Shown piece after piece: positions 6,355 through 64,000 of a stretch of 64,000 nucleotides of DNA (position 1 is its first letter; each line of letters opens with the position of its first letter). The notes below the pieces were generated by a model. The model was not told where the DNA came from. It did no database searches and saw only the letters and a program-made list of their open reading frames with translations. The translations under genes and the position numbers were made by a program. The stretch is from Jiangella gansuensis DSM 44835 (lineage in GTDB: Bacteria; Actinomycetota; Actinomycetes; Jiangellales; Jiangellaceae). The stretch lies in NCBI RefSeq assembly GCF_000515395.1, contig NZ_KI911782.1, forward strand, positions 496,001-560,000, read 5' to 3'.

Positions 6355-6425
6355 AAATGATCACGTCCGGCATGGGTGTTCCCGCTCCACCACGAATGCC
6401 TGCCTGGTGAAGCGGGAGGAGACCT
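6355..6425 (+). repeat. GATCA-capped palindromic repeat, family A copy 1
   Basis: AAATGATCACGT (6355-6366) is followed by a hairpin: TTCCCGCTCCACCA, an 8-10 base loop, then TGGTGAAGCGGGAGG. Related copies lie at 39998-40082, 44503-44582, 53053-53127 and 55492-55562. It lies just 3' of the Fur gene. Confidence 0.8.
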
Positions 6426-6519
6426 CCAGGTGGACCTGCGCTACCGACGATCACGGGCAGTGCGCGCCGGCGGCCCAACGGCGCTGACGCCCGGCTGCGG
6501 CCGTGTAGGGTACGACGCC

Positions 6520-28306: not shown

Positions 28307-28308
28307 CC
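28265..28308. repeat. attL: 44-bp direct repeat inside tRNA-Asp
   Basis: It begins CTGTCAAGGCGGAGG and ends CAGGACCGCC, identical to 38211-38254. It is next to the integrase stop codon (16 bases). Confidence 0.92.
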
Positions 28309-37959: not shown

Positions 37960-38210
37960 GGGTCTCTCCCTGGCTAGCTCAGGTTGGGATCAAGTCCCCG
38001 GCCCGGTGTTCCAGCACCGGCCGGGGGCGACTAACTGATGAGGACGCGCAGGCACCAGGCGGGCCACGTGGCCGCGCAGCTAAGAGGCAGCGAAGAGGCA
38101 TCAGAACCCGCACCGCCCACGAACAAGGGCCAGTATCAGCCGCCATCCTGACCTGCGCAGATGGACCGCCAACGGCAACGGACGACAGCGGACGACGAGC
38201 CCGATCCGCA
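37960..38210. other. Gene-free right end of the integrated element
   Basis: It carries the promoter side of the 37959 gene and about 170 bp before attR. No coding frame or strong repeat is visible. Confidence 0.4.
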
Positions 38211-38254
38211 CTGTCAAGGCGGAGGTCGCGGGTTCAAGTCCCGTCAGGACCGCC
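38211..38254. repeat. attR: copy of the tRNA-Asp 3' half
   Basis: It is identical over 44 bp to 28265-28308 (anticodon loop to discriminator). The 5' half of a tRNA is missing here, so it is not a tRNA gene but the right attachment site. Confidence 0.92.
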
Positions 38255-39997: not shown

Positions 39998-40082
39998 TGA
40001 TCATCGACGATCCGGCACGCCACCAGGCGTTCTCCCGCTCCACCATGCCTACATACCTGGTGGAGCGGGAAGAAGCCTCGTG
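39998..40082 (+). repeat. GATCA palindromic repeat, family A copy 2
   Basis: TGATCAT (39998-40004) is followed about 20 bases later by GGCGTTCTCCCGCTCCACCA, a short loop, then TGGTGGAGCGGGAAGAAGCC. It is the same hairpin as in the other family A copies, placed between the convergent RibD and Nramp-like genes. Confidence 0.75.
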
Positions 40083-43839: not shown

Positions 43840-44573
<734 letters not shown>

Positions 44574-44582
<9 letters not shown>

Positions 44583-46346: not shown

Positions 46347-46357
46347 GCGGCTTCTCC

Positions 46358-47650: not shown

Positions 47651-48291
47651 GATGCCTCCCCAGCCGCATGGCTGCGGGATCCGGGCTGCCCTGGCGTCCC
47701 GGATCCCGCAACCATCGGGTCCATGGACGCGGCGACGGCGGCCCGGTCGCCCGGCCAGCGCGCGTCGAACTCCGCTCGGGTGCAGGCGAGCACCGCGGCT
47801 CGCTTGTCCGGCAGGTCGGCCTCGCCCAGCGTCGTCAACCCCAGCCGGGCGCAGTAGGCGAGCATCCGGCCGTTGCGGACGTCCGGCTCGCAGACGGCCC
47901 GCGCGCCCCGGCCCAGCAGATACGCCAGCACCGCCCGGCCCATCAGCCGGGGCACCCCCGTGCCGAGCATCGACAGCGGCCCGGCCAGCAGGTGGAAGCC
48001 CACGTCGTCGGCGCGCGCCGGGTAGTACGCGGCCAGCGGGTCGTCCTGCACGCGGTAGGTCTCGACGTAGCCGAACGGGACTCCGTCGGCCGACACCACC
48101 CACGGCGCGAGGTGGGTGAGCCCGGCCAGGTAGTCGCGGATGGCCGGTAGCGGCTTGTCGAGCTGCCACCACGGGACGACGTGTGGCCGGTTCATCCAGT
48201 CGTGGACGAGCGCGGCGTCGGCGTCCGCCCGGGCTGGGGTGAACGTCAGCTCGACGGCGGCACCCGGGAGCGTCACGAACAACGCGCTCAT
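47647..48291 (-). CDS. GNAT N-acyltransferase (RhbD/IucB-like)
   Basis: A 214-residue acyltransferase of the siderophore group: VHDWMNRPHVVPWWQLDKPL, FGYVETYRVQDDPLAAYYPARADDVGFHLLAGP and the CoA-site region MLGTGVPRLMGRAVLAYLLGRGARAVCEPDVRN are diagnostic. It acylates the hydroxylamine to make the hydroxamate. ATG 48291 overlaps the upstream stop (ATGA). The C-terminal tail after SMDPM is unstructured. Confidence 0.9.
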   Translation of the reverse strand: MSALFVTLPGAAVELTFTPARADADAALVHDWMNRPHVVPWWQLDKPLPAIRDYLAGLTHLAPWVVSADGVPFGYVETYRVQDDPLAAYYPARADDVGFHLLAGPLSMLGTGVPRLMGRAVLAYLLGRGARAVCEPDVRNGRMLAYCARLGLTTLGEADLPDKRAAVLACTRAEFDARWPGDRAAVAASMDPMVAGSGTPGQPGSRSHAAGEAS

Positions 48292-50129
48292 GGGGCCACC
48301 CCCAGCAGCGGGTTGGGCAGCGTCACGTACACCGACTGGGTGGCGATGTCGCCGACCAGTTCGTCCATGTCGCGCGCCCGGGTGAGCAGGTTCGCCTTGC
48401 ACGGCCAGCGTTCGTCGTCGAGAAGCCGGTCCAGGAGCGTCGCCGGGTATCGCCCGCCGCGCCGGCGTTCCGATGTCAGCACCCGGCGCAGGTCCGCCAG
48501 CAGCAGCGACTCGTCGGCGCACGGGCCCAGCGCGTTCACCACACCGAGAGTCAGGTTGACGAACAGGTAGTAGACGAGCCGCTCGTCGGCCAGCGTCTCC
48601 GGGAAGATCGATTCGGTGGCTTCGCCCAGGCCGGGGACGACGGCGGTCAGGTCGCCGTGCGCCGCCTCGCGGTGGAAGTACCCCTGGCTGTCGCGGTACG
48701 CCCCGCGCACCGGCCAGCCGTCCTCCAACTCGACCAGCGTGTTCTGCTGGTGCGCCTCGAAGCACAGCCCGACGTCGAGGTACAGGCGGATCAGCGACCG
48801 GACGACGACGTCGCAGAACCGGCCGAACCACTCCCGGGCGACGTCGTCCTCGGCTCGGCCGGTCCGGGCCGCGATCGCCGCGACGATGGCCGACAGCCGG
48901 CTGCGTCCGCCGTACGGGTGGTCCTGGCACAGGGTGGTCAGCGCGGACACGTCCCGTGGCCCGCCGGTGCCCCACCGGTTCGACCTCAGCAGTACCGAGA
49001 AGCCGTTCAGGACGTCGTCGCCGCGGGTGACGGTGAGGTAGGCCGGGTCCTGGACGAGGACGAAGTCCGGCGCGGCCTGCGCGGTCCACTGCCCGACCAC
49101 GGTGCGCGCCAGCCGTGCGGACTCCACGGCGCGGTCCAGCTCCTTCGGCAGCGTGACCCGCATCGAGTTCGTGACCCGCACGTGCAGCGAGAACTTCAGC
49201 TGCCACGGCGACTCGGCCCGGTAGACGGTGCGGACGGACGTGGTGGGCAGGTACGGCGAGCCCCACTCTCCGAGGTCCACGACCGCGCCGCTGTCGAACA
49301 GGTCCGCGGTTTCCGGTGCGGTGGCCAGCCGGTCCGCCTCGTACGGGTGCGCCGGCAGCAGCATCCGGTCACCGCCGACGGCGCCGAGCGTGGCGTCCAG
49401 CGCGGCGGAGTCCACCGCGGGGTCCTCGCGCAGCAGCGCTTCGGCCAGGAGCGGCGCCGGGGTGTCCACCGCGCTGCCGTGCCGGATGAGGTCGGCGGAG
49501 ACGGCCAGCCAGCGCAGCGGGAACCGGCCGCCGGTCTCCGGGGAGTACCGCTGCCGTTCCGTGCCGCTCATCTCGCCGCGGCTCTTCGGGGTCGGGTGCA
49601 CCAGGTGCCCGAGCAGGAGTGCCTGTTCGGTCTCGCCGAAGGTCAGCGGCTCGGGCGACCAGAGCCGGTCGATGTCGCCGCCTCGGCGGGTCAGGTGGTC
49701 GGCGACCGCGGCGGCACTGTCGAGGACCCGGGTCAGCAGCGCTTCACCGCGGCCCGGTGCCTCGTCGAGCGTGTCGGCCAGCAGTACCGCCAGCGGCGCC
49801 AGCGCGATCGGCCGCGGCGCGGCGTCGCCGAGCTGGATCAGCGCCGGCAGCTCGAGCTGGTGCCGGAACGTCGCGGAGACACGCCGGACCCCGATCAGCA
49901 GGCGGCCGTTCCAGCGGGGCAGCGGCACGACGACGACCGGCTGATCGCCGCGGGTGTCCAGCGTCCAGCCGGGCAGCTCGCGCAGCCAGCAGGTGAGCAG
50001 CGCGTGCGCGCCGGCGTCGTCCGCGGCCTCCCGTGGCGACGGTTTCCGCGACTCCTGGAGAGTTATGCACCCTTCCGGAGCACTTTCAGCGTGCACAACT
50101 CTCCAGAAGTCGCGGGTGGGGGCGGTCAC
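48288..50129 (-). CDS. IucA/RhbC-type NRPS-independent siderophore synthetase
   Basis: A 613-residue IucA/IucC ligase. The body has LLPAHPYEADRL, LPTTSVRTVYRAESPWQLKFSLHVRVTNSMR and LCFEAHQQNTLVELEDGWP with RDSQGYF. It is expected to join the first N-acyl-N-hydroxy-diamine to citrate. GTG 50129 overlaps the decarboxylase stop. From about codon 6 to codon 28 the DNA is a 24-bp-arm palindrome encoding RDFWRVVHAESAPEGCITLQ, which looks like an inserted element. The family-like sequence starts only at REAADDAGAHALLTCWL. Confidence 0.88.
   Translation of the reverse strand: MTAPTRDFWRVVHAESAPEGCITLQESRKPSPREAADDAGAHALLTCWLRELPGWTLDTRGDQPVVVVPLPRWNGRLLIGVRRVSATFRHQLELPALIQLGDAAPRPIALAPLAVLLADTLDEAPGRGEALLTRVLDSAAAVADHLTRRGGDIDRLWSPEPLTFGETEQALLLGHLVHPTPKSRGEMSGTERQRYSPETGGRFPLRWLAVSADLIRHGSAVDTPAPLLAEALLREDPAVDSAALDATLGAVGGDRMLLPAHPYEADRLATAPETADLFDSGAVVDLGEWGSPYLPTTSVRTVYRAESPWQLKFSLHVRVTNSMRVTLPKELDRAVESARLARTVVGQWTAQAAPDFVLVQDPAYLTVTRGDDVLNGFSVLLRSNRWGTGGPRDVSALTTLCQDHPYGGRSRLSAIVAAIAARTGRAEDDVAREWFGRFCDVVVRSLIRLYLDVGLCFEAHQQNTLVELEDGWPVRGAYRDSQGYFHREAAHGDLTAVVPGLGEATESIFPETLADERLVYYLFVNLTLGVVNALGPCADESLLLADLRRVLTSERRRGGRYPATLLDRLLDDERWPCKANLLTRARDMDELVGDIATQSVYVTLPNPLLGVAP
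50047..50114 (-). repeat. 68-bp hairpin inside the 5' end of the siderophore synthetase gene
   Basis: The arms are 24 bases (50047-50070 and 50091-50114) around a 20-base loop. All 24 positions pair in RNA if two G-U wobbles are allowed. It lies 13 bases after the GTG start of the IucA-type gene. It is either an inserted palindromic element translated in frame or a control hairpin. Confidence 0.85.
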
Positions 50130-51574
50130 GCGGCCTCCTTGGCGGTGGTGACGACGGTGTCGAGCAGGGCGGCGATGTCGCCGGCCGTGGTCAGCGGATT
50201 CGTCAGGGTGAGCTTGAGCGCGACCCGTCCGCGGTGCCGGGTGCGGCCGACGACGGCGCGGCCGGACGCCAACAGGCGCCGCTGGACGGCCACGTTGAGC
50301 TCGTCCAGCCGGGCCTCGCCCAGCCCGGCCGCACGGCAGCGGAACAGCACCATCACCGTCTGCGGCGGCGCCAGCAGCTCCAGCTCCGGCCGGTCGGTGA
50401 CGGCGTCGCCGGCGGACGCGGCCAGGTCGACCAGGTGCTCGACCATCGCGGCCAGCCGGCGCCGCCCGGTCGCCCGCAGCGACACGAGGATCTTCAGCGC
50501 GTCGAACCGCCGCGACGTGTCCAGTGATCGGTCGACGAGGTTGAGCACGTCCGCGTCGTCGGTCCGGTTCAGGTAGTCGGCCGGTTCGCGCACGCTGCCC
50601 AGCAGCGCGGCGTCGCGGACCAGCAGCACGCTGGCGCCGATCGGTTGCCACCACAGCTTGTGCAGGTCGGCGGTGATCGAGTCGGCCCGCTCCAGACCGG
50701 TCAGAAGCGGCCGCAGCCGGTCGCTGAGCAGCAGCGCTGACCCGACCGCGGCGTCCACGTGGAACCACGCGCCGGCGTCCGCGGCCCGGTCGGCCAGGGC
50801 GTCGAGCGGATCGATCCCCCCGGTGTCGGTGGTGCCGGCCGTCCCGACGACGGCGATCGGCACGGCTCCGGTCTGCCGCAGCCCGTCCAGGCAGCGGTCC
50901 AGCGCGGGGACATCCATCCGGCCGGCGTCGTCGGTGGCCACCGCGACGACGGCGTCCCGGCCGAGGCCCAGCACGGCGGCCGCCTGCCGGACGCTGACAT
51001 GGGCCGCGGAGGAGGCGAGGATGCGCCACCGCGCGGCCACCGGCGGCAGCCCGTTGACGTTCGCGCCCCCGGCCGCGTGGTCGCGTGCGAGCAAGAGACC
51101 GAGCAGGTTCGACGCCGTCCCGCCGGCGGTCAGCACGCCCGACGCGGCGGCCGGCAGCCCCGCCAGCGTGCCCAGCCTGCTCACCAGCCGGTCCTCGACG
51201 TAGGTGGCGGCCGGCGCCTGGTCGAAGGAGTCCATCGACTGGTTGGTGACCGCGATGGCCAGCTCGGTCGCGGCCGCCGTCAGCAGCGTCGGCGGATGCA
51301 GGTGAGCCGCGCACCACGGATCGGTGACTCGGGCGCCGTTGGCCAGCACCTGCCGCCCGACGTCGGCCAGCACGTCGCGCAGCGGTTCGGCGTCGTCAGG
51401 CAGGGGTTCGACGGCGGCGGCCGCCGTTCGCAGCCCGGCCGGGTCCAGTGCCGGGAACGGCGGGCGGTCGTCGGTACCGGCCAGCACGTCCAGCACGTCC
51501 GCGACCGCCGCGCGCAGAGCGTCGTGCGAGGCGGCGCTGCCGTCGAGGAACAGCGGTGTGTCGTGGCCGGTCAC
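50126..51574 (-). CDS. PLP-dependent diaminobutyrate decarboxylase (RhbB-like)
   Basis: A 482-residue group II decarboxylase. PWCAAHLHPPTL, GVLTAGGTASNLLGLLLARD (phosphate and cofactor loop), AGAWFHVDAAVGSALLLS (cofactor Asp) and SITADLHKLWWQPIGAS (Schiff-base Lys) are all present. It is expected to convert L-2,4-diaminobutyrate to 1,3-diaminopropane. GTG 51574 overlaps the aminotransferase stop. Confidence 0.9.
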   Translation of the reverse strand: MTGHDTPLFLDGSAASHDALRAAVADVLDVLAGTDDRPPFPALDPAGLRTAAAAVEPLPDDAEPLRDVLADVGRQVLANGARVTDPWCAAHLHPPTLLTAAATELAIAVTNQSMDSFDQAPAATYVEDRLVSRLGTLAGLPAAASGVLTAGGTASNLLGLLLARDHAAGGANVNGLPPVAARWRILASSAAHVSVRQAAAVLGLGRDAVVAVATDDAGRMDVPALDRCLDGLRQTGAVPIAVVGTAGTTDTGGIDPLDALADRAADAGAWFHVDAAVGSALLLSDRLRPLLTGLERADSITADLHKLWWQPIGASVLLVRDAALLGSVREPADYLNRTDDADVLNLVDRSLDTSRRFDALKILVSLRATGRRRLAAMVEHLVDLAASAGDAVTDRPELELLAPPQTVMVLFRCRAAGLGEARLDELNVAVQRRLLASGRAVVGRTRHRGRVALKLTLTNPLTTAGDIAALLDTVVTTAKEAA

Positions 51575-52950
51575 CGCGGTTCGTCCCGGCTCGCCCGCAG
51601 CGCCGCGCCGAACGCGTCGACCACCCGGTCGACCTCCGCCGCGGTGATGATCAGGGGTGGCAGGAACCGCACGACGGCGTCATGCGTGCCGCCCACTTCC
51701 ACGATGACGCCGCGGTGCAGCATCTCCCGCTGCACCCGGCCGGCCAGCCAGCCGTCCGGCACCGGGACGCCGTCGGCGTCGATCACCTCCGGGTCGACCA
51801 GTTCGGCGCCGACCATCAGGCCGCGACCGCGCACGTGCCCGACCCGCGGGTCGTCGGACGCAACCGCCAGCAGGCCCTCGGTGAGCCGGCGGCCGACGTC
51901 GCGGGCGTGCTCGACCCACCCGGCCGTCGTGACCTCCCGGATCGTCGCCGCGCCGGCAGCCAGTGCCAGCGTCGAGCCGCGGAACGTGCCGGCGTGCGCG
52001 CCGGGCTGCCAGCCGTCCAGGGCACCCCGGTGGACGATGACCGCGAGCGGCAGCCCACCACCGATCGCCTTCGAGAGCACCAGGACGTCCGCCTCCAGGC
52101 CGACGGCCTCGCTGGCCCACAGGTCACCGGTGCGGCCGAGACCGGTCTGGACCTCGTCGGCGATCAGCACGGTCCCCGCCGCCCGGGTGGCCCGGCGGAC
52201 GGTGCCGGCGAACGCCGCCGGCATCGGGTGCACGCCGCCCTCGCCCTGCACCGGCTCGGCGATGACCGCGGCCGGCGCGGCGATCCCGCTGAGGTCGTCG
52301 GCCAGCGCCCACTCGACGACTCTGCCGGCCATGCCCGCGGCGTCGTGCAGGCCGAACGGCGAACGGAACGCCGTCGGGAACGGCAGGTGGTGCACGTCCG
52401 GCAGCAGCGTGCCCAGCGGCTCCTTCGCCGAGCGGCGGCCGGTGAGCGCCAGCGTGCCCTGGGTCATGCCGTGGTAGGCGCCGCCGAAGGCGAGCACCCC
52501 GGACCGCCCGGTCGAGGTGCGGGCCAGTTTGACCGCGGCCTCGACGGCGTCGGCGCCGCTCGGGCCGCAGAACAGGATGCGCCCGTCGCGCAGGTGTTGC
52601 GGCAGTACTTCGAACAGCTGGGTGACGAAGCCGTCGCGGACCGGCGTCGGCAGGTCCAGCGTCGACAGGGGCGCACCGGAGTCGAGAGCGTCCCGGATCG
52701 CCTGCACCACCACCGGATGGTTGTGGCCGAGGGCCAGCGCACCGGCGCCGGCCAGGCAGTCGAGGTAGGCGTTGCCCTGCCGGTCGCGGACCGTGCACCC
52801 GCGTGCCTCGACCAGGGCGATGGGCAGCCGCCGGGGATAGGAACGGGCCGACGACTCCCGGCGGCGTTGCCGTTCGAGCAGCTCGTCGTGGGGTTCGGTC
52901 GTTCCGGTTGCTGGTGGATCGGCGAGCTTGACACCCTCGTGGTACGCCAC
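51571..52950 (-). CDS. Diaminobutyrate-2-oxoglutarate aminotransferase (RhbA-like)
   Basis: A 459-residue class III aminotransferase. FCGPSGADAVEAAVKLAR, FGGAYHGMTQGTLALTG, EPVQGEGGVHPMP, LIADEVQTGLGRTG and VLSKAIGGGLPLAVI (PLP Lys) are present. The N-terminal RRRESSARSYPRRLPIAL is typical of the diaminobutyrate branch. It makes L-2,4-diaminobutyrate from aspartate semialdehyde and glutamate. The start is GTG 52950. It is the first gene of the six-gene operon, 37 bases after an iron box. Confidence 0.9.
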   Translation of the reverse strand: MAYHEGVKLADPPATGTTEPHDELLERQRRRESSARSYPRRLPIALVEARGCTVRDRQGNAYLDCLAGAGALALGHNHPVVVQAIRDALDSGAPLSTLDLPTPVRDGFVTQLFEVLPQHLRDGRILFCGPSGADAVEAAVKLARTSTGRSGVLAFGGAYHGMTQGTLALTGRRSAKEPLGTLLPDVHHLPFPTAFRSPFGLHDAAGMAGRVVEWALADDLSGIAAPAAVIAEPVQGEGGVHPMPAAFAGTVRRATRAAGTVLIADEVQTGLGRTGDLWASEAVGLEADVLVLSKAIGGGLPLAVIVHRGALDGWQPGAHAGTFRGSTLALAAGAATIREVTTAGWVEHARDVGRRLTEGLLAVASDDPRVGHVRGRGLMVGAELVDPEVIDADGVPVPDGWLAGRVQREMLHRGVIVEVGGTHDAVVRFLPPLIITAAEVDRVVDAFGAALRASRDEPR

Positions 52951-52987
52951 GGGCGCGGTCCTTTCACGGAGAATGATCTGCAGTCAA

Positions 52988-53006
52988 CTAGGTTTGCCTA
53001 ACCTAA
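52988..53006 (-). promoter_or_regulatory. DtxR/IdeR iron box
   Basis: TTAGGTTAGGCAAACCTAG on the minus strand matches the 19-bp consensus TTAGGTTAGGCTAACCTAA at 17 of 19 positions. It overlaps the expected promoter of the siderophore operon, giving repression by iron-loaded DtxR/IdeR. Confidence 0.88.
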
Positions 53007-53052
53007 CTCAGACCGCAAGTGCCTCCGTGATGCTGCTTGCTGTGCACCCCGA

Positions 53053-53127
53053 AAATGATCACGTCCACCATGGGTGCACCCGCACCACCATGGATGCATG
53101 CCGCGTGGAGCGGGAGAACGCCTGGGG
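53053..53127 (+). repeat. GATCA palindromic repeat, family A copy 4
   Basis: AAATGATCACGT (53053-53064) is followed by a degenerate hairpin GGGTGCACCCGCACCACCA, a loop, then CGTGGAGCGGGAGAACGCC. It lies upstream of the siderophore promoter and downstream of the convergent septum-formation-like gene. Confidence 0.75.
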
Positions 53128-53212
53128 GCGGCCGGCAGTTCGACCCGAAGACCGCCCGGCCGGGCGGCGAGCGGAGCGGCTGCGGCGGAATCGACGCGCC
53201 GCCGCTCCGTCG

Positions 53213-53962
53213 TCAGGTCTGGGCCCGCTCCGCGAGCGTCCCCGTCAGCGGGCCGTTCGGCGACATGGCGATGCAGATGATCTCGCGGCTGGACACCCAG
53301 CGATCCTCGGCCGGGTAAATGTAGGTGAACCCGATGGTCATGTTCTGGGCCGCCGAGGGTGCGTAAGCCCACAGCAGGTCATTGCACCTCTGGTCAGCCT
53401 CCGCGAAGACCGCATCCTCGCCCGGGTAGGGTCCACGCTCCAGCTCGACGATGCCGAACACCTCGCCTTCGTGCGGCTGCGCGCACGGCACGGCAGGCAG
53501 TGAGAAGACCCTGGTCGTCTCCTCCAGGTCGTTGACGCAGTCGCCGACCCCCAGCTTCTCCGGCGCGAGATCCCCCGCCTCGGTGACGCGACCCGACTCG
53601 TCGCGGTCGGCCCGGTCCGTGGTGCCGACCGCGCTCAGGGTGATGATGAGCGTGAGCCAGACGCCGGACGCCACCAGCCCGCCGATCGCGTGCTTCTTGC
53701 CGGGCTGGTTCCGGTCGCTGAGCTGGACCAGCGCGATGATGGCGCAGGTGATGGCCAGCGGGAAGACGGCGAAGACCCCGAACAGCAGCGCGGCCACGGC
53801 GAGCTTGTTCGTGGACGGGTCGCGTGGCGGCCCCTCTTCGGCAGCCCATGGGTTGTACGGGCCGGGTGTGTAGGGCCGGGGTTCGAAATACGGCCGCGGC
53901 TGCGGATGGGGCTGCGGCGGTTGTGCTGGCTGGGCGTACGGGTCCGCCCCGGGATCGGACAT
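53213..53962 (-). CDS. DUF4190/septum-formation-like membrane protein
   Basis: A 249-residue protein. A Pro/Tyr-rich cytoplasmic N-terminus (about 45 residues) precedes two membrane helices (LAVAALLFGVFAVFPLAITCAIIALVQL and IGGLVASGVWLTLIITLSAVG), the DUF4190 layout. The extracytoplasmic part carries KLGVGDCVND, VPCAQPHEGEVFG and a further Cys pair, the Septum_form domain. Such proteins are common in actinobacteria; the role is not defined. ATG 53962 is preferred to 54016. Confidence 0.82.
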   Translation of the reverse strand: MSDPGADPYAQPAQPPQPHPQPRPYFEPRPYTPGPYNPWAAEEGPPRDPSTNKLAVAALLFGVFAVFPLAITCAIIALVQLSDRNQPGKKHAIGGLVASGVWLTLIITLSAVGTTDRADRDESGRVTEAGDLAPEKLGVGDCVNDLEETTRVFSLPAVPCAQPHEGEVFGIVELERGPYPGEDAVFAEADQRCNDLLWAYAPSAAQNMTIGFTYIYPAEDRWVSSREIICIAMSPNGPLTGTLAERAQT

Positions 53963-54117
53963 GGTGCGGACGGTAGCGCCTCGGCCGGACAGATGCCTCA
54001 CAACATGACATTGCATAGGTCTCGTGCGGAACGTAACGCGGCGATAACCTCTGCCCTACATCGGCCGATCTTCAATGGTCGAGCTTGTGCCCTGTCGGTC
54101 CCGGAGAGGAACGCGTC

Positions 54118-55464
54118 ATGAGGCTTACCGATCAGCCCCGTTCGAAGCGCCGCCTGGTGGTGGCCGCCGCTGCCGCCACGCTCGCGCTGACGGTCGTCGC
54201 CGTCCCGCCCACCGTCGGCGCCGCGGAGTCGAGCCTGCCCAGCGGCAACACCGAGTACCGCACGCTGGCCGACTACGAGGCGGACATGGCGGAGCTGGCC
54301 ACCGAGCACCCGGACCTGGTCAAGCCGATCACGTTGCCGTACGCGACGACGTCCGGCCGCACCGTCCACGGCATCGAGATCAGCCGCGACGTCGACGTCG
54401 ACAACGGCAAGCCGGTCTTCGTCAATGTCGGCATGCACCACGGCAACGAGTTCCCCAGCGGCGAGCTGACCATGGAGTTCGCCATCGACCTGGTCGAGAG
54501 CGCGGCCGCCGGCGACCCGTACGTCACCCGGCTGCTCGACGAGGCCCGCGTCGTCGTCGTGCCGGTGGTGAACGTCGACGGCTTCGTCCGCGGCCGCCGC
54601 CAGACCGACACGAACACCGACATGAACCGCAACTACGGCCTGGGCTGGCTGCCTATCTCCACCGGTGGCGCGGCGGCATGGTCGGAGCCGGAGACCCGCA
54701 ACATCGAGTGGTTGCTCTCCACCCGGCAGGCCACCGTGTTCAACACCCAGCACACGTGCATCCAGGTGGTGCTCTACCCGCCGCTGCAGCTCGAGGCCGG
54801 CCCGGCCCAGGACGTCGACCGGCTGCACGCGCTGGCCTCGCAGGTGGCGGCGGCGTACGGCCCCAATTACAAGGCGCTGCCGTCGGCGGAGGACTACGAG
54901 ACCACCGGAGAGGCCATCGACTGGGCGTACTTCGCCACCCGTGGCCTGTCCATCACCACCGAGACCTGCCCGGACGCGGGCGTGGCGCGCACCTACCAGA
55001 CGCAGGTGCTGGACGTGTACGACGAGCACCGCCAGGCCGCGTTCACCATGCTGGAGACGGCGGCCGACCCGGCCGAGCACGCCGTCATCGCCGGCCAGGC
55101 ACCGAAGGACGCGGTGTTGCGCATCACCAAGTCGTTCGACATGTACACCAGCCCATATCTCCAGGCGGACGGCTCGACCCGTCCGTCGTCGTTCACCACC
55201 ACGCTCACCGACGATCTCGACATCGCCAGCCGCAACGGCAAGTTCGAGTGGTCGGTCAACCCGTCGTACCGGCCGATCCCCGCCTACCAGGCCAGCGGTG
55301 TCGAAGGGAACCAGACGGGGTTCTACACCGAGCCGTGGATCCTCACCTGCGAGCGGCCGGACGGCACGGTGCTGCAGACCGTCCCGGTGAACGTCGACCT
55401 AGGCGAGCGGGTGACCGTCGACCTCAAGGAGTGCCGCCGCGAGTTCCACCGCGACCGCAGCTGA
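54118..55464 (+). CDS. Secreted M14-family zinc carboxypeptidase
   Basis: A 448-residue exoenzyme. The signal peptide is RRLVVAAAAATLALTVVAVPPTVGAAE. The peptidase domain has MHHGNEFPSGE (zinc HxxE), VVPVVNVDGFVRGRR, TDMNRNYG, NTQHTC (third ligand) and TTETCPDAG (catalytic Glu). The remaining 120 residues form a beta-rich domain. It releases C-terminal amino acids outside the cell. GGAGAGG precedes ATG 54118. Confidence 0.88.
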   Translation: MRLTDQPRSKRRLVVAAAAATLALTVVAVPPTVGAAESSLPSGNTEYRTLADYEADMAELATEHPDLVKPITLPYATTSGRTVHGIEISRDVDVDNGKPVFVNVGMHHGNEFPSGELTMEFAIDLVESAAAGDPYVTRLLDEARVVVVPVVNVDGFVRGRRQTDTNTDMNRNYGLGWLPISTGGAAAWSEPETRNIEWLLSTRQATVFNTQHTCIQVVLYPPLQLEAGPAQDVDRLHALASQVAAAYGPNYKALPSAEDYETTGEAIDWAYFATRGLSITTETCPDAGVARTYQTQVLDVYDEHRQAAFTMLETAADPAEHAVIAGQAPKDAVLRITKSFDMYTSPYLQADGSTRPSSFTTTLTDDLDIASRNGKFEWSVNPSYRPIPAYQASGVEGNQTGFYTEPWILTCERPDGTVLQTVPVNVDLGERVTVDLKECRREFHRDRS

Positions 55465-55491
55465 CATTCGCCCCTCCCTTCTCCGACCCGG

Positions 55492-55562
55492 AAATGATCA
55501 CGTTGCGTTGGGGTTCTCCCGCTTCACCAGGGATGCTTGCCTGGTGAAGCGGGAGAACGCCT
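55492..55562 (+). repeat. GATCA palindromic repeat, family A copy 5 (best copy)
   Basis: AAATGATCACGT (55492-55503) is followed by arms 55511-55530 and 55541-55560, complementary at 19 of 20 positions around a 10-base loop. It lies 28 bases after the carboxypeptidase stop. Confidence 0.85.
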
Positions 55563-55638
55563 GGTGTCGGGTCGCCGCGCCCACCCAACCCGAGCCATAC
55601 CGGCCCGGGTTGTCGGCCCGGCGTGTGAAGATGGCGGC

Positions 55639-56328
55639 ATGGGTGAGGACCGCTCCGCACTGAGCCGGCCGGACGCCTCCGCGGCGGTGTCCCATCTCGG
55701 CTGGCGTTATCTGCTGGGCCGGTTGCACACCGGCGTCGCCGTCGGGTCCCTGGCCGAGGCGGCCGAGGTCGCGACGACGGCGGCGCAGGCGGCCGGCACG
55801 TCGGCGAGCCTCTCACTCGACCTGCGCCGTGACCGGGTGCTGCTCGCCGTCCAGGACCCAGCGATCGCCGACGTCACCCCGGCCGATGTCGAGACGGCCG
55901 GACGCATCACGACGGCGTTGCTCGCGGCCGGCCGGCACTCCGACCCTGGCCTCGGAGAGGGCGGCCGCGTCGTGCAGTCCCTCGAGATCGGCATCGACGC
56001 CATCGACATCCCGGCCATCCGGCCGTTCTGGAAGGCAGTCCTCGGCTACACCGACGAGCCGGGGCACGAGGGTCCGGAGGACCCCCTGGTCGACCCTCGC
56101 GGCCAGGGTCCGGCCGTGTGGTTCCAACAGATGGACGCACCGAGACCGCAGCGCAACCGCATCCATCTCGACGTGACGGTCCCGCACGACGAAGCGGAGA
56201 ACCGGCTGCGGGCAGCGCTCGCCGCCGGTGGCCGGTTGGTGTTCGACGCCATGGTGCCGGCGTTCTGGGTGCTGGCCGACCCCGAGGGCAACGAGGCGTG
56301 CATCTGCACCTGGCAAGGGCGGGACTGA
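55639..56328 (+). CDS. Pterin-dehydratase-like / VOC two-domain protein
   Basis: A 229-residue fusion. Residues 1-100 resemble a 4a-hydroxytetrahydrobiopterin dehydratase-like fold (HLGWRYLLGRLHTGVAVGSLAEAAEVAT, DLRRDRVLLAVQD, VTPADVETAGRIT). Residues about 110-229 are a VOC domain (IGIDAIDIPAIRPFWKAVLGY, RNRIHLDVTVPHDEAENRL, WVLADPEGNEACICTW). The dehydratase's catalytic histidines are not all apparent. The reaction is unknown. The downstream PHP gene starts two bases after its stop. Confidence 0.8.
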   Translation: MGEDRSALSRPDASAAVSHLGWRYLLGRLHTGVAVGSLAEAAEVATTAAQAAGTSASLSLDLRRDRVLLAVQDPAIADVTPADVETAGRITTALLAAGRHSDPGLGEGGRVVQSLEIGIDAIDIPAIRPFWKAVLGYTDEPGHEGPEDPLVDPRGQGPAVWFQQMDAPRPQRNRIHLDVTVPHDEAENRLRAALAAGGRLVFDAMVPAFWVLADPEGNEACICTWQGRD

Positions 56329-56329
56329 G

Positions 56330-57361
56330 GTGAGCGCCGACGCCAACCCGGGCGACGTCCTGCGGCGCATCGCGTACCTGCTGGAGCGGGCGCGCGAGCC
56401 GACGTATCGAGTACGCGCCTTCCGCACCGCGGCGGCCGCAGCGGACACCGTCGGCGGGGCGGAGCTGGCCGAACGGGTCGCCGCAGGCACTCTCACCGAG
56501 CTGCGTGGCATCGGCAAGGTCACCGCCGAGGTCATCACGGAGGCGCTGGCCGGTGAGGTTCCGGTCTACCTCCGTCGCCTCGAAGCCACCGCCGGGCAGC
56601 CGGTCGCCGAGGGTGGTGCCGAGGTCCGCGCGGCACTCCGCGGCGACCTGCACACCCATTCGGACTGGTCCGACGGCGGCAGCCCGATCCCGGAGATGGT
56701 GCGTGCGGCGGCCGGGCTCGGCCACCAGTACATCGCGCTGACCGACCACTCGCCCAGGCTCACGGTCGCCAACGGGCTGTCCGTCGAGAGGCTGCGCCGT
56801 CAGCTCGACGTCGTGGCCGAGCTGAACGAGCAGTCCGACGGCATCCGCATCCTCACCGGCATCGAGGTCGACATCAACGAGGACGGGTCGTTGGACCAGA
56901 CCGACGAGCTACTCGGCCGGCTCGACGTCGTCGTCGCGAGTGTGCACTCCAAGCTGCGGATGCCCGCGGACGAGATGACCCGCCGTATGGTCACGGCGAT
57001 CGCCAACCCGCACGTCGACGTGCTCGGGCACTGCACCGGCCGGCTGGTCACCGGCGGTCGCGGCACCCGGCCGGAGTCCACCTTCGACGCCGAGCTCGTC
57101 TTCGCCGCGTGCGAGCGGTTCGGCGTCGCGGTCGAGATCAACTCCCGGCCGGAGCGGCTCGACCCACCGAAGCGGCTGCTGCGACTTGCGGTCGAGGCCG
57201 GCTGCTCGTTCGCCCTCGACACCGACGCCCACGCGCCCGGCCAGCTGGACTGGCAACCGTACGGGTGTGAGCGGGCGGCCGCGTGTGGCGTCCCGGTCGA
57301 GCGCATCGTCAACACCTGGGCGGTCGACGACCTGCTGGCCTGGACCGGCCGCTCCCGGTGA
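56330..57361 (+). CDS. PHP-domain protein with PolX-like helix-hairpin-helix N-terminus
   Basis: A 343-residue protein. Residues 1-75 form a DNA-binding helical region as in PolX (IAYLLERAREPTYRVRAFRTAA, LTELRGIGKVTAEVITEAL). The PHP phosphoesterase domain has GDLHTHSDWSDGG, YIALTDHSPRL, GIEVDINEDG, VVASVHSKLRM, VDVLGHCTGRL and FALDTDAH, the full set of metal ligands. The polymerase domain of PolX is absent. It is probably a DNA-repair phosphoesterase. The start is GTG 56330 after ACTGAGG. Confidence 0.86.
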   Translation: MSADANPGDVLRRIAYLLERAREPTYRVRAFRTAAAAADTVGGAELAERVAAGTLTELRGIGKVTAEVITEALAGEVPVYLRRLEATAGQPVAEGGAEVRAALRGDLHTHSDWSDGGSPIPEMVRAAAGLGHQYIALTDHSPRLTVANGLSVERLRRQLDVVAELNEQSDGIRILTGIEVDINEDGSLDQTDELLGRLDVVVASVHSKLRMPADEMTRRMVTAIANPHVDVLGHCTGRLVTGGRGTRPESTFDAELVFAACERFGVAVEINSRPERLDPPKRLLRLAVEAGCSFALDTDAHAPGQLDWQPYGCERAAACGVPVERIVNTWAVDDLLAWTGRSR

Positions 57362-57414
57362 TCAACAGGGAGTTGCTACCGCTGGAGGGGGCGTAGCTTC
57401 CTGTCGATCACGGG
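57354..57414. terminator. Hairpin between convergent genes (GATCA family B)
   Basis: CCCGGTGATCAACAGG on the left pairs imperfectly with CCTGTCGATCACGGG (57400-57414). It matches the 10721-10780 element in layout. The stop codons of the PHP gene (57361) and the convergent MFS gene (57362) are adjacent within it, and the last 18 or so MFS codons are encoded by the element. Confidence 0.65.
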
Positions 57415-58591
57415 ATGCTGGATCCCGCCGACGGGTCGCGGCGAGGCCGAAGCCGAGTGCCAGCGCCGCCATGGCCGCGCATCCCCACAGTGCTGCCGTC
57501 GGTCCGGCTCCGTCCACCAGCACGCCGAGCACACTCGTCGTGCCGGCGGCGATGCCGATGCTCAGCCCGAGCGCCACCCCGGACGCCAGCCCAGCGTGCC
57601 TCGGCAGAGCGTCCTGGGCGACGATGACCAGCGGATACACGCTGCCCTCGATGGCCAGCCCGATCAGCACCAGCAACGCGACCGCCATGACCGTCGTCGA
57701 CAACGGCAACATCGCCGTCAGCGGTAGCAAGACCGCCACCGAGACCACGATGACCGGGCGGCGGCCATGCCGGTCGCCTAGCCACCCGCCTGCATAGGTG
57801 CCGACGGCACCGGCCACCAGCATCGCGGTGACGGCGGCGCTGCCGAGACCGACGCCCGCGCCGAGCACCTCGTCGAACCACACCGGCGCGAACGCCATCA
57901 GGCCGAAGAGCACCGCGGTGGCGGCCGTCGCACCGGCTGTCGCGTACCCGAACGTCCGCCAGTCGCTGGGGAGACCGGCGAACTCGGCCTCGGTTGCGTC
58001 CGACGCGGGACCTGACGCGTCGATGCCGCGGCCCAGGAGCAGCGCGCCGGCCAGCGGGATCACGGCGACCGCGGCCACGGCCGGTAGCCCGAACGCGGCA
58101 CCGAGCGGCACCGCCAGGGCCGGGCCGAGCGCGAAGCCGATGTTGCCGCCCAGTGCGAACACGCCCAGGGCCGAGCCGGGGCTGTCGCCCGCCGCCGCGC
58201 GGGTGGCCCGGATCGCCTCCGGGTGGAAGACCGCTACGCCCAGGCCGCCGGCCAGCAACGCCACCGCGATGGCGGCGAACGACTCCACCGCGGTCGCCAG
58301 CGCCAACCCGCCGGCGGCCATCACCAGGCCGAGCGGCTGCAGCCATGCCGCCCGTACGCGGTCGCCGACCAGCCCGGCGACCGGTTGCATCACGGAGGAG
58401 GCAAGGCTGCCGGCCAGCACGAGCAGCCCGGCGTCGGCGTAGCTCATGCCGCGGTCGGCGACAAAGAACGGGACCAGTGCCGGGACAGCGCCCTGGAAGA
58501 GGTCAGCGCCCACATGTCCCACGGTCAGCCGGGCCACCCGGCCGCGGTGGACGCCCTGACCGGGCAGCACCCGGTCGAGCACGGCGGTCAT
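57362..58591 (-). CDS. MFS transporter (fosmidomycin-resistance-like)
   Basis: A 409-residue, 12-helix exporter: VGHVGADLFQGAVPALVPFFVADRG at the N-terminus, VMQPVAGLVGDRVRAAW, GLGVAVFHPEAIRATR and, in the second half, GWLGDRHGRRPVIVVS, the DHA signature. The AVFHPEA motif is typical of the Fsr group. Its start ATG 58591 overlaps the TetR stop by four bases, so regulator and exporter are co-translated. Substrate unknown, probably a toxic compound. Confidence 0.87.
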   Translation of the reverse strand: MTAVLDRVLPGQGVHRGRVARLTVGHVGADLFQGAVPALVPFFVADRGMSYADAGLLVLAGSLASSVMQPVAGLVGDRVRAAWLQPLGLVMAAGGLALATAVESFAAIAVALLAGGLGVAVFHPEAIRATRAAAGDSPGSALGVFALGGNIGFALGPALAVPLGAAFGLPAVAAVAVIPLAGALLLGRGIDASGPASDATEAEFAGLPSDWRTFGYATAGATAATAVLFGLMAFAPVWFDEVLGAGVGLGSAAVTAMLVAGAVGTYAGGWLGDRHGRRPVIVVSVAVLLPLTAMLPLSTTVMAVALLVLIGLAIEGSVYPLVIVAQDALPRHAGLASGVALGLSIGIAAGTTSVLGVLVDGAGPTAALWGCAAMAALALGFGLAATRRRDPASRDRQEATPPPAVATPC

Positions 58592-59163
58592 GGGAGCAGC
58601 CCGTTCAGGGCGAGATCGAGAACGGCGCCGGTGGCCCGCTGCGCCGGCCACCGGTGCTCGCGGCGCAGGTGCAGGTACGTCTCGGTGACCTGGACGTACA
58701 GCACGGTCGCGGCCTCCTCGGGGTTGTCGAAGGTGCGCAGCGAGCCGTCCAACGCGCCGTCGCGCAGCAGCCGCACGATGGGCGCGGTGAACTCCGCCCG
58801 GGTGAGGGAGTCGTCTCCCGGCTCGTGGTAGATCGCGTTGAGTGCGGCGTCGTCCAGTCCGCTCAGCAGGTCGGAGCGTTCGTCGGTGAGCGCGCACACG
58901 GCCTCGACGAGCGCGGTCAGCCGGGTCCGGGCGTCGCCGTCGGCGGCCAGGATGGGCAGCAACCGTGCGCTCTCCTCGCGGACCAGTTCGTCACGCAGGG
59001 CCGCCAGGATGGCCGTTCTCGTCTCGCCGCGTCGGTACAGGGTGACGCGGGTGATGCCGGCCTCCTTGGCGATGTCGGCCATGGAGGCGGTGCGTAACTC
59101 CTGACGCTCGGCGAGCCGCTTGGCGGCTTCGAGCACATCCTGAGACACCCTGTCGTCATTCAC
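58588..59163 (-). CDS. TetR-family regulator of the adjacent exporter
   Basis: A 191-residue repressor. The HTH contains SQDVLEAAKRLAERQELRTASMADIAKEAGITRVTLYRRGETRTAIL; a helical ligand domain follows. GTG 59163 is chosen because it immediately follows a palindromic operator and removes an atypical 65-residue extension. It is coupled to the MFS gene. Confidence 0.87.
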   Translation of the reverse strand: MNDDRVSQDVLEAAKRLAERQELRTASMADIAKEAGITRVTLYRRGETRTAILAALRDELVREESARLLPILAADGDARTRLTALVEAVCALTDERSDLLSGLDDAALNAIYHEPGDDSLTRAEFTAPIVRLLRDGALDGSLRTFDNPEEAATVLYVQVTETYLHLRREHRWPAQRATGAVLDLALNGLLP

Positions 59164-59178
59164 GATACAAGGTGTATC
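59164..59178. promoter_or_regulatory. Palindrome at the TetR start, candidate operator
   Basis: GATACA-AGG-TGTATC has perfect 6-bp arms and abuts the GTG start of the TetR gene. This position suggests a leaderless or short-leader transcript under autorepression. Confidence 0.65.
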
Positions 59179-59299
59179 ACAGGATTCGCGGTCGAGGAAG
59201 ACTGTCAGCGGTACGAACGGGTGGTTTCCGGCCTGGTTGCGTGTCGCGGTGGGGGCACATCGCCAGGCGATGGCAGGGGAGCGCGTACTCTCTGCGCGC

Positions 59300-60001
59300 A
59301 TGGACATCATCCTGATCCCGGGCTTCTGGCTCGACGGCTCGTCGTGGAGCCAGGTCACGCCGGTGTTGGAGCAGGCGGGTCACCGGGTGCGCGCGCTCAC
59401 GCTGCCAGGGCTGGAGTCAGTCGGGGCTGATCGCAGCGGCATCGGGCTGCGCGATCACGTCGCCGCCACGGTCGCCGCCGTGGACGAGGTCGACGGCCCC
59501 GTCGTGCTGGTGGGGCATTCCGGTGGGAGCGCCATCGCGCACGGTGCCGCCGACGCTCGGCCGGACCGCGTCGCGCGGGTGATTCACGTCGACTCCATCC
59601 CGCTCGCCAACGGTCAGCCGATCAACGCCGCGCTGCCCGTGGTGGACGGCGAGATCCCGCTGCCCGACTGGTCGGAGTTCGCGGTCGAGGACATGCGGGA
59701 CCTGGACGACGACCTGCGCGCGGCGTTCCGCGCGCGGGCCATTCCCGAGCCGACGGGCGTGGCCTTCGACCCGCAGGTGCTCACCGACGATCGGCGCTAC
59801 GACGTCCCGGCCACGGTCGTCGCCTGCGAGTTCACCGGCGAGCAGCTGCGGGAGTGGATGGCCGAGGGTGACCCGGATCTCGCGGAAGTGGCCGCCCTGC
59901 GCAAGGTCGAGTACGTCGACGTGCCGACCGGCCACTGGCCGCAGTTCACCAAGCCCGCCGAACTCGCCCAGGCCATCCTCGGGGCGCTCGACCGCACCTG
60001 A
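59300..60001 (+). CDS. Alpha/beta-hydrolase fold protein
   Basis: A 233-residue hydrolase. IILIPGFWLDGSSWSQVTP holds the oxyanion region, LVGHSGGSAIAHGAA has the nucleophile Ser in GHSGG, and GHWPQFTKPAELAQAI supplies the catalytic His. It resembles salicylate-esterase-like actinobacterial hydrolases; the substrate is unknown. The start is ATG 59300. It is transcribed away from the TetR/MFS pair. Confidence 0.86.
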   Translation: MDIILIPGFWLDGSSWSQVTPVLEQAGHRVRALTLPGLESVGADRSGIGLRDHVAATVAAVDEVDGPVVLVGHSGGSAIAHGAADARPDRVARVIHVDSIPLANGQPINAALPVVDGEIPLPDWSEFAVEDMRDLDDDLRAAFRARAIPEPTGVAFDPQVLTDDRRYDVPATVVACEFTGEQLREWMAEGDPDLAEVAALRKVEYVDVPTGHWPQFTKPAELAQAILGALDRT

Positions 60002-60027
60002 CGTGCGGTCCGCGAGGCGACGAGCGC

Positions 60028-61404
60028 TCAGCAGGGTGCCGGGGCGATGTTCGCGTTGAGCCGGAACAGGTTGTCCGGGTCGTAGCGCCGCTTCACCTCG
60101 GTCAGCCGGTCCCAGGTGGCGCCGGGATAGGCCTCCCGGATGCGCGCCGGGGCGTCGTCGCCGAGGAAGTTGACGTACGCGCCGGGGCCGCCGTTCTGGA
60201 TCCGCTCGGTGAGCTGGACGACCCAGGCCTCGCGCTCGGTCCGCGTCTCGGGGCCGTCGACGAACGCCGCGACGTTGACCATGAAGCCGCGCCGGCGGTG
60301 GGCGTACGCGGTGGCGTCGTCGGGGACCCGCGCGATGGCGCCGCCGAGCGGCCGCAGCTGGGTGACCCGCATCGGAGCCGGGGCCGACGCGAGTTGCTCG
60401 AGGATGCCCTCGACCAGCGGCCGGTCGATCTGGTCGGCGAAGAGCGTGCGGGCCACCGCGACCGGGTGGTAGTCGTTGTCCTCGGGTGGGAACATCGCCG
60501 CGTACGTCATGGGCTGCACCATGTCGACGATGGGCGTGGCCAGGGCCCGGATAGGGGCGAGCACCTTCTCCGCCTCGTCGACGGGCCCTGCGTAGCAGAC
60601 CAGCGCGAACGCCACCATGGTGCCGTGCAGTTCCTCCGGCACGAAGGGCATCGGCGGCGCCGGCATGAGGTTGACGATGACCGACAACTCGTCCGGAGCG
60701 GCAGCGGCCTCGGTGAGGAAGCCGTGCACGACGTCCGCGGTGGCCGGGAGCATGAGCATGCCGCCCACGATGCCCGGCAGCTCCCGCACCTGGTACTGGA
60801 ACCGGGTGACGACGCCGAAGTTGCCACCGCCGCCGCGGATGGCCCAGAACAGCTCGGGATGGTTCTCGGCGTCGACCACCAGCACCTGGCCGTCGGCAGT
60901 GACGACCTCGGCCGCCACCACGGCGTCGATGGTGAGGCCGTACTTGCGGGACAGGAACCCGACCCCGCCGCCGGTGGTGATGCCGCCGATGCCGACAGTG
61001 CCGGTGTCGCCGAAGCCGAGGACCAGCCCGTGCTCGGCGAGCGCCGTGGTGACCTCGCCCGCCGTCAGGCCCGTCTGCGCCCACACGGTGCCGCCGGCGA
61101 CGTCGACGTCGAGGTCGCGCAGCGCCGCGAGGTCGAGGGTGATGCCGCCGTCGCTGACGCCGTGGCCGACGGCGCTGTGCCCACCGCTGCGGACGGAGAG
61201 CTCCATGCCGGTGTCGCGAGCCAGGGCGACGACGGCGGCGACCTCCGCGGTGTCGGCGGGGCGAATGACGACGGCGGGGCGGTGGTCGGCGCCGCCGTAG
61301 AAGACGGAGCGGGCGGCATCGTAGCCGTCGTCACCCGGTGCGATGACCTCGCCGGCGAAGTCGGAACGGAGCCGGTCGAGGGAGAGAGTGGTAGGCGTGC
61401 TCAT
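60028..61404 (-). CDS. FAD-binding oxidoreductase of the BBE (berberine-bridge-enzyme-like) type
   Basis: A 458-residue flavoprotein. The PCMH-type FAD domain has VVIRPADTAEVAAVVALARDTG, LSVRSGGHSAVGHGVSDGGITLDL (His for covalent flavin), FGDTGTVGIGGITTGGGVGFLSRKYGLTIDAVVAAEVVTAD and LFWAIRGGGGNFGVVTRF. The C-terminal BBE motif is YPGATWDRLTEVKRRYDPDNLFRLNANI. It oxidises an unknown alcohol or sugar with O2. ATG 61404 is chosen over the frame opening at 61524. Confidence 0.9.
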   Translation of the reverse strand: MSTPTTLSLDRLRSDFAGEVIAPGDDGYDAARSVFYGGADHRPAVVIRPADTAEVAAVVALARDTGMELSVRSGGHSAVGHGVSDGGITLDLAALRDLDVDVAGGTVWAQTGLTAGEVTTALAEHGLVLGFGDTGTVGIGGITTGGGVGFLSRKYGLTIDAVVAAEVVTADGQVLVVDAENHPELFWAIRGGGGNFGVVTRFQYQVRELPGIVGGMLMLPATADVVHGFLTEAAAAPDELSVIVNLMPAPPMPFVPEELHGTMVAFALVCYAGPVDEAEKVLAPIRALATPIVDMVQPMTYAAMFPPEDNDYHPVAVARTLFADQIDRPLVEGILEQLASAPAPMRVTQLRPLGGAIARVPDDATAYAHRRRGFMVNVAAFVDGPETRTEREAWVVQLTERIQNGGPGAYVNFLGDDAPARIREAYPGATWDRLTEVKRRYDPDNLFRLNANIAPAPC

Positions 61405-61648
61405 GCGGTCAGGGGTCTCCTTCGCGTGTCGTGGCGCCGTGGCCGGTACGACCCGGGCAGCGTGTCGGGTACGACACTGCCCGGACGCGCTGACAGATCG
61501 CTCACAGAACGGTGTCAGCGCCACGCGCCGGCTGGGCCTCGGACTCCATTCAAGCCGAAGCCACCGACAAGGTCGGAACGGTTTTCGCGCACAGCTCGAC
61601 CGGCCGGGGCGCGTGGAGCGGGCCGGACGGACTGGGTAGCCTGTGCCC

Positions 61649-61722
61649 GGGGCCTCTAGCTCAATTGGCAGAGCAGCGGACTTTTAATCCGCGGGTTCAG
61701 GGTTCGATCCCCTGGGGGCCCA
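61649..61722 (+). tRNA. tRNA-Lys (anticodon TTT)
   Basis: The acceptor GGGCCTC pairs with GGGGCCC; the D-arm is GCTCAATTGGCAGAGC. The anticodon loop CTTTTAA lies on a GCGGA/TCCGC stem, and the T-arm is CAGGGTTCGATCCCCTG. CCA is not encoded. No element is integrated here. Confidence 0.95.
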
Positions 61723-61860
61723 CCTCTGGTTCGGAGACTTCGCATACGACCGATCCGCAGGTTCACGGTTCGAGGTCATCGTCATGACGAGTGCCTTCAG
61801 AGGTCCACGTGATTCGTGCGCGGCACCAGCACCGTCGCCCTGGTCTCCGGGGCGGCAAGC

Positions 61861-61893
61861 GACGTGTCGGCCCTTGGCTCGAACCGACACGTC
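61861..61893. promoter_or_regulatory. Perfect 10-bp-arm hairpin upstream of the GAF-ANTAR gene
   Basis: GACGTGTCGG (61861-61870) and CCGACACGTC (61884-61893) surround a 13-base loop. The rest of 61723-62077 holds no credible gene. ANTAR proteins act on paired hairpins in leaders; this single hairpin could be a terminator or part of such a site. Confidence 0.4.
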
Positions 61894-62077
61894 TAGCCGA
61901 AGCTCCGTCGCGCGCCGAAACGGCGGCTTGCTGTAACGTACCCGCTCGACGAATTGACATGTGCCCGCCTGCGTGTTCTACAGGCATGGGGCGACGAACG
62001 ACCTGTCGCTGCGTTTCCGTGGTGAAGTCTCGTTGGGATCGCCGACACCTTGAGGGCTGTGGGAGGGGGCAACCGAG

Positions 62078-62773
62078 GTGATGGACCGCTATCAGTTCAA
62101 CCGACTCTTGGCCGAGGCAGCGCGCGACATGGCGGACGAGCCGGGCACGCAGCTCACATTGGACCGGGCTGTTCTGATGGCCACCGACATCATCGAGAAC
62201 TGCGACCTTGCCGGAATCTCCCTCGTCCACCGGAGCGGGATCGACACCCCCGCCGCCAGTCACAAACAACTCCGGCAGATCGACGAGTTGCAGTACGAGC
62301 TGAACGAAGGTCCCTGCCTCGATGCTCTGAAACAGACCGACGTGTTGGCCGTCACCAACCTGGCCGAAGACCCCCGCTGGCCGAACTGGGGGCCCCGCAT
62401 CGCCGCCGAGCTCGACATCCACTCCTCGATGAGCTTCCGGCTCTTCACGACCGGCGAGAACCTGGGTGCGCTTAACCTCTACGCCACCAAGATCGACGCC
62501 TTCAGTCACGAGGATCTCCTCGACGGGCTCGCGTTGGCCGCTCACGCAGCAGTCGCGCTGGCGGCGGCCGTCGAGGAGGACCATCTGCACCGAGCGTTGG
62601 ATACCCGCCGCATGATTGGCGAGGCGACCGGCATTCTCCGCGAACGCTACGGCCTCACCACCGGCCAGGCATGGGGCGTCCTGCGCCGCATCTCCTCCCA
62701 TCACAACATCAAGCTCCACCAGGTGGCCGAGCAACTCGTCGACATCGGCACTCTCCCCGACAGCAGCGGATGA
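62078..62773 (+). CDS. GAF-ANTAR regulator (RNA-binding antiterminator)
   Basis: A 231-residue protein. The GAF sensory domain spans about residues 25-160 (CDLAGISLVHRSG, ELNEGPCLDALKQTDVLAVTNL, FRLFTTGENLGALNLYATK). The C-terminal ANTAR domain is ALDTRRMIGEATGILRERYGLTTGQAWGVLRRISSHHNIKLHQVAEQLVDIG. ANTAR domains bind hairpin RNA to prevent termination. GTG 62078 and ATG 62081 are both usable starts. No partner histidine kinase is nearby. Confidence 0.9.
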   Translation: MMDRYQFNRLLAEAARDMADEPGTQLTLDRAVLMATDIIENCDLAGISLVHRSGIDTPAASHKQLRQIDELQYELNEGPCLDALKQTDVLAVTNLAEDPRWPNWGPRIAAELDIHSSMSFRLFTTGENLGALNLYATKIDAFSHEDLLDGLALAAHAAVALAAAVEEDHLHRALDTRRMIGEATGILRERYGLTTGQAWGVLRRISSHHNIKLHQVAEQLVDIGTLPDSSG

Positions 62774-62927
62774 TCGGATGGCTCGAACCGAGCCAGCAGG
62801 TGTGCGCCAGAATCTCGGCCGCGTTGAGCGAGGCGGAACGCACTCTCATGCCGATGACCGGCGGGGCCCTCTGACGGTCCACGCTGGTTGAGGCTGGTTC
62901 GACCGACAGAGACGGGCCCAGCTCAGA

Positions 62928-63992: not shown

Positions 63993-64000
63993 GCCGGGAC

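Follow-up and report, generated by a model that had tools for sequence, protein, structure and literature searches.

Jiangella gansuensis is a desert actinobacterium whose genome (G000) forms one contig of 5,585,780 bp. The stretch analysed here, hereafter the window, comprises 64,000 nucleotides of that contig (G000:C1:496001-560000). A full-length asymmetric palindrome lies on its plus strand at 55492..55567. It opens with the end motif AATGATCACGT (55493-55503), passes through the two arms of a hairpin (55516-55531 and 55540-55555) and closes with a second motif at the 3' end, GCCTGGTG (55559-55566). A covariance model built from 31 copies scores it at 102.3 bits. The copy at 6355..6430 (plus strand, 86.7 bits) lies 14 nt past the stop codon of a gene that ends at 6341, and the one at 53053..53128 (plus strand, 81.3 bits) has two minus-strand genes either side of it. 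A further copy, at 44504..44579 on the minus strand, contains an internal TGA (44574-44576) that serves the minus-strand gene 44574-46346 as its stop codon. This confirms the claim of the original prediction that copies are intergenic or at a stop codon. Gene calls here and below come from a home-made codon-usage caller.

The original prediction listed five copies. Those at 6355 (plus), 44504-44579 (minus), 53053 (plus) and 55492 (plus) stand, each with an exact AAATGATCACGT, whereas the fifth was given the wrong place and the wrong orientation. The TGATCAT at 39998 appears to be a hexamer that arose by chance. The true copy is on the minus strand between convergent genes, at 40020..40073; it is end-truncated, corresponds to model positions 23-76 and has lost its GATCA end. 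On rescoring, the minus strand reaches 47.7 bits vs 40.2 bits for the plus strand. Rfam models identify tRNAs alone in the window and have no match in the element-bearing loci, other hits being sub-threshold miRNA matches only. As a separate observation, window positions 38206-38254 are 98% identical to the 3' part (28260-28308) of the tRNA at 28232-28306; perhaps this is a tRNA fragment at an integration junction.

The common J. gansuensis unit is about 76 nt long. It runs from AATGATCACGT through a variable stretch into a 16-bp hairpin (CTCCCGCTTCACCAGG / CCTGGTGAAGCGGGAG) and on to GCCTGGTG. A minority form is a symmetric unit of 86 nt with AATGATCACGT at each end, and in these symmetric copies the terminal inverted repeats match at 11 of 11 bp. 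J. gansuensis has 24 units with exactly this spacing and J. asiatica 5K138 (G005) has 67. Haloactinopolyspora alba DSM 45211 (G018) has 44-nt perfect palindromes too, and longer doublets occur in other genomes. The ends are nearly constant. In a set of 101 copies, conservation is 99-100% in columns 2-12 vs 44-72% in columns 13-16, and the other interior columns vary; the set was filtered for near-intact ends, which removed about six copies of some 110. If every position drifted like the interior, few copies would retain all 11 bases. The same ends enclose unrelated interiors in J. asiatica, in H. alba and in genomes from further families, where the 75-nt spacing between motifs often recurs, and the interiors of J. 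asiatica and H. alba are specific to each species. In short, the unit is REPIN-like: it has a near-invariant 11-nt end and a variable hairpin interior, and it is completed either by a 3' GCCTGGTG or as an 86-nt symmetric dimer.

Two variations on this theme were seen in J. gansuensis. One is a longer 3' extension, TGGCCGCCTGGCCGCGTGCGACGGTTGCCCGGCT or similar, common to the copies at L157:6752, L146:14163, L165:19427 and L159:14898. The other is a separate palindrome, with a 22-bp stem and the ends CATGATCATGTTC/GAACATGATCATG, at about L178:17038-17112, which is orthologous to the intergenic L210:5010-5164. Perhaps it belongs to a second element family with a variant end.

The prediction of a genome-wide, REP-like intergenic family has been borne out. 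Exact AATGATCACGT occurs 227 times in the J. gansuensis genome and not once in a reversed control, and the covariance model finds at least 150 full-length matches genome-wide, each of at least 63 bits. A 1.26-Mb sample picked for copy richness contains 112 non-overlapping copies. The family therefore consists of well over 100 small elements in this species. In the sample, 116 of the 122 motif sites fall inside copies recognised by the model, so the motif exists almost solely as the end of a long element, and a reading of it as an uptake sequence (DUS-like) was dropped. Beyond J. gansuensis the motif is patchy: four congeners (G003, G008, G009 and G010) have 0-3 occurrences, seven others have 26-275 and H. 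alba has 84. A class-wide sample of genomes has it at background level save for a few. One of these, G029, is from another family and carries 14 motifs, several as pairs 75 nt apart. The G029 elements (L346, L347, L349 and L350) have paired TGATCACGTNNACGTGATCA dyads at their ends, which resemble an operator with 11-bp half sites. The gansuensis-type pattern had no match in the named genomes, in keeping with a species-specific interior.

Copies are located where terminators sit. In the J. gansuensis sample 101 of 112 are intergenic and 5 lie within called genes, compared with 85% of random points. The AAATG end points toward a stop codon in 79 of 101 copies, and in 16 of the 101 the TGA of the motif is the gene's own stop codon. 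Convergent gene pairs are in excess around the copies (41/101) and divergent pairs are rare (6). The idea that most copies occupy the loop of an older terminator was rejected, since in 111 J. gansuensis copies the flanks are complementary no more often than chance would give; complementarity does exceed chance in a pooled set of symmetric copies, unlike in J. gansuensis alone.

What if the host itself selects for these elements? They might serve at 3' ends as bidirectional terminators or mRNA stabilisers, with a host protein binding the end motif, selection retaining them beside certain genes and ordinary gene conversion homogenising the interior. The location right behind stop codons and the bias toward convergent genes are what this would predict, as is the conservation of occupied sites across genera described below. 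Some copies also have strong hairpins. The one at 55492 has the best RNA fold of the window copies (-49.2 kcal/mol, z -6.6), and the folds at 55492, 44504 and 40020 are all well beyond those of shuffled sequences (z -5 to -6.6). However, the fold at 53053 is marginal and that at 6355 is no better than shuffles (z -0.3), and a scan of 45000-64000 for rho-independent terminators, GC-rich hairpins with a U-tract behind them, found none at the 53053 and 55492 copies. Pairing is also weakly maintained. In the 101 full-length copies each hairpin arm pairs with its own partner at 81.5% of positions vs 79.9% with swapped partners. None of 2000 shuffles reaches the own-partner value (z=4), so the compensatory changes claimed in the original prediction are real, but they were overstated, because the effect is this small and some 18% of the pair cells do not pair. 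With own-partner pairing barely above swapped-partner pairing, selection for the fold is weak at best, and recent common ancestry explains most of the likeness among copies. Finally, four congeners are nearly copy-free, which argues against an essential role. Selection by the host is, on this balance, a rather unlikely explanation.

The nearest known systems in architecture are the REPINs of Pseudomonas fluorescens SBW25, which are REP doublets that form hairpins with a 71-bp spacing and are associated with RAYTs (PMC3116915). Both families have inverted, invariant ends about 71-75 bp apart around a spacer constrained in length and hairpin, and both occur as extragenic singlets and doublets in hundreds of copies (PMC3116915). 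There are further parallels with the GTAG and CGTC REPs. The stop codons provided by GTAG REPs are TAG (Di Nocera et al., 2013, PMC3733652), and those provided by the Jiangella elements are TGA. Both are found near gene ends with an excess of convergent and tandem arrangements, and some GTAG/CGTC REPs lie inside larger palindromes (PMC3733652). The CGTC type has been left without a transposase (PMC3733652), much as no RAYT was found here. The differences are that those units are 20-40 nt long vs 76-86 nt here and that neither tag is found here. The word actinobacteria does not appear in the main text of PMC3733652.

Such parallels in architecture, spacing, gene-end location and stop-codon supply are the attraction of the idea that the Jiangella palindromes are REP or REPIN elements mobilised by a RAYT (Y1 HUH) transposase, and a RAYT gene had been proposed. 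It fails on the enzyme: Y1 (PF01797) has no match in J. gansuensis or in any other of the 22 family genomes searched, while the positive-control genomes were matched. In an alignment of 31 copies the base of the hairpin likewise carries no GTAG tag, the conserved end being the 11-mer AATGATCACGT instead of a GTAG-tagged hairpin. Nor is there a CGTC tag beside a stem of 8-9 bp with a loop of 4-5 nt; ACGTC is present in a subset of copies only, and both stem and loop are longer. The one gene found to be flanked repeatedly by elements (see below) is not a RAYT. Mobilisation by a RAYT is accordingly very improbable. The family works like REPINs but by these criteria is not a member of a RAYT-mobilised family, and it differs from the SBW25 case also in that interiors differ between species at orthologous sites. 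A search for Y2 (IS91-type, PF04986) found no match, and its control was likewise silent.

The next clue comes from these orthologous sites. The stop of window gene 44574-46346 was compared in 12 species. J. gansuensis and G004 carry a gansuensis-type element there, the elements of G002 and G011 share its ends but enclose another interior, and the other congeners have no element. In a two-gene tree the carriers do not form a single clade. Occupancy was also scored for 100 orthologous intergenic regions of J. asiatica, H. alba and other Jiangella against the sampled J. gansuensis. J. gansuensis is occupied at 19 of 25 sites filled elsewhere vs 7 of 75 empty elsewhere (Fisher p=5e-10), a contrast within loci that were picked for copies (the J. 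gansuensis blocks) or for containing one (the others). The contrast holds in tandem-gene regions alone (11/13 vs 1/42, p=7e-9) and for H. alba alone (4/5 vs 1/20). Several of the 'empty' sites proved on inspection to be degenerate elements.

Occupied sites are thus shared, and their contents are not. Interior identity is 0.52 for the same locus across species, 0.56 for different loci across species and 0.72 within species. This combination suggests that elements are replaced in place. One J. gansuensis element, L152:7444 on the minus strand, has a J. asiatica-like interior and is orthologous to the L270 site; it is likely a relic. At the 55492 locus, 9 of 10 other species carry a different strong palindrome shortly past the same stop, which is consistent with replacement. 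A plain hairpin is not a general feature of empty sites: in the small set available, hairpins there are no stronger than background, so the case for replacement of plain terminators comes from one locus, 55492. No copy was seen to move, and the intergenic flanks have diverged too far for any exact filled/empty pair to be aligned. The mobility role that had been proposed nevertheless gains indirect support from the patchy orthologous sites, the sharing of ends around different interiors and the lack of target-site duplication.

That last point is relevant to another possibility, that these are classical MITEs of a DDE transposase which strike shared hot spots independently in every lineage. The terminal inverted repeats, the high copy number and the species-specific interiors all fit this. 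Against this, no target-site duplication was found in 68 symmetric copies pooled from several species, where direct repeats are at chance. The hot spots would have to persist even in tandem-gene regions amid surrounding divergence. Moreover, the genes between inward-facing pairs in the sampled J. gansuensis blocks are ordinary by inspection and none is transposase-like. This makes MITEs an improbable explanation. The flanks of the same 68 copies do form inverted repeats more often than swapped pairs (7.4% vs 0.3% for 8-mers), although the effect is not significant in the J. gansuensis set alone.

Is there a candidate partner? The sole recurrent one between two ends, in the sampled part of the genome, is a gene for a protein with an AbiEi domain. 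Among clusters of the proteins encoded in the sampled loci, the AbiEi_4-domain cluster most often adjoins elements (6 of 8 members; p=0.001, uncorrected for the many clusters compared), and genes flanked by elements on both sides number 15 of 1989 in the sample. A pair of inward-facing elements encloses the AbiEi gene at L368 in J. gansuensis, L298 in J. aurantiaca, L229 in J. rhizosphaerae and L307 in another Jiangella locus, making a unit of 1207-1229 bp. In J. gansuensis this is L368:1037-2265 (G000:C1:2958036-2959264), with the protein encoded at L368:1218-2174. In H. alba (L253) one flanking side is visible before the stretch ends. The site is a convergent mshC/PAC2 junction wherever both neighbours are in view, and the flanking elements are of the interior type of their host. 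The J. gansuensis unit is inverted relative to four other Jiangellaceae loci, as though recombination between the inverted elements on its two sides had turned it round.

Actinobacteria commonly carry AbiEi genes. Since occupied sites are conserved, the flanked cases within Jiangellaceae amount to about one event, and site conservation alone could explain them. A further case is G029, in which a 40%-identical homologue is likewise flanked at another site, between diacylglycerol-kinase-like and helicase-like genes; we estimate a p of order 0.004 for it after rough correction. The protein carries the winged-helix domain AbiEi_4 (PF13338, E 1e-10), the AbiEi antitoxin 6y8q is a fold match for its N-terminal part (E 7e-5) and the PADLOC AbiEi models match too. 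It shares these features with other AbiEi-domain proteins, but here the gene stands alone between inverted elements with no adjacent AbiEii toxin gene seen, and the C-terminal part has a conserved pattern, E...D...ExDGxxKY...RED, outside Pfam recognition. We take this pattern to resemble DUF559/Vsr-type nucleases. From its residues the domain looks nuclease-like, an identity that Pfam, a PDB sequence search and AlphaFold (pLDDT 50) did not confirm. No relatives of the protein are encoded on viral contigs. It is a candidate trans-acting partner of the elements.

The explanation that we favour, and to which we would give about an even chance, is that the palindromes are mobile, REPIN-like elements of a non-autonomous kind. 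Their invariant end AATGATCACGT would be recognised by a protein acting in trans, and the remainder of the unit would need only to keep its length and hairpin. The partner would likely be the AbiEi-domain protein of the element-flanked 1.2-kb unit. A new copy would tend to replace an existing palindrome, which could be an element already resident or, at a gene end, simply a terminator hairpin. In this way the set of occupied sites could be kept while the interior sweeps to a new species-specific type, and copies would be tolerated because they lie directly behind stop codons. The route might be palindrome-replacing transposition or nuclease-triggered ectopic conversion, in which the ends would be cut and then repaired from other copies. 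A precedent for the first is IS1272 of the IS1182 family, which inserts by replacing a palindrome without target duplication (PMC5678879). Its target palindrome is lost in the process (PMC5678879), as a resident palindrome would be in the scheme proposed here. The difference is that IS1272 is an insertion sequence with its own transposase, whereas for the present elements the mechanism is an inference.

A bolder version is possible but doubtful. It holds that the elements represent a new class of bacterial palindromic mobile element, whose AATGATCACGT ends are acted on by an AbiEi-like protein that binds DNA and has a PD-(D/E)XK-type domain, and not by a transposase of the HUH or DDE kind. This protein would drive the exchange of one palindrome for another, such that dispersed copies would show concerted evolution at fixed addresses in different species and genera.

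It is an open question in the field how palindromes scattered through a bacterial genome remain similar to one another, and so is what mobilises REP-like families without a RAYT. Because the Jiangella elements have the same addresses and the same ends with unrelated middles in different species, replacement in place can be tested directly in them, and the AbiEi-domain gene is the obvious candidate partner to examine.
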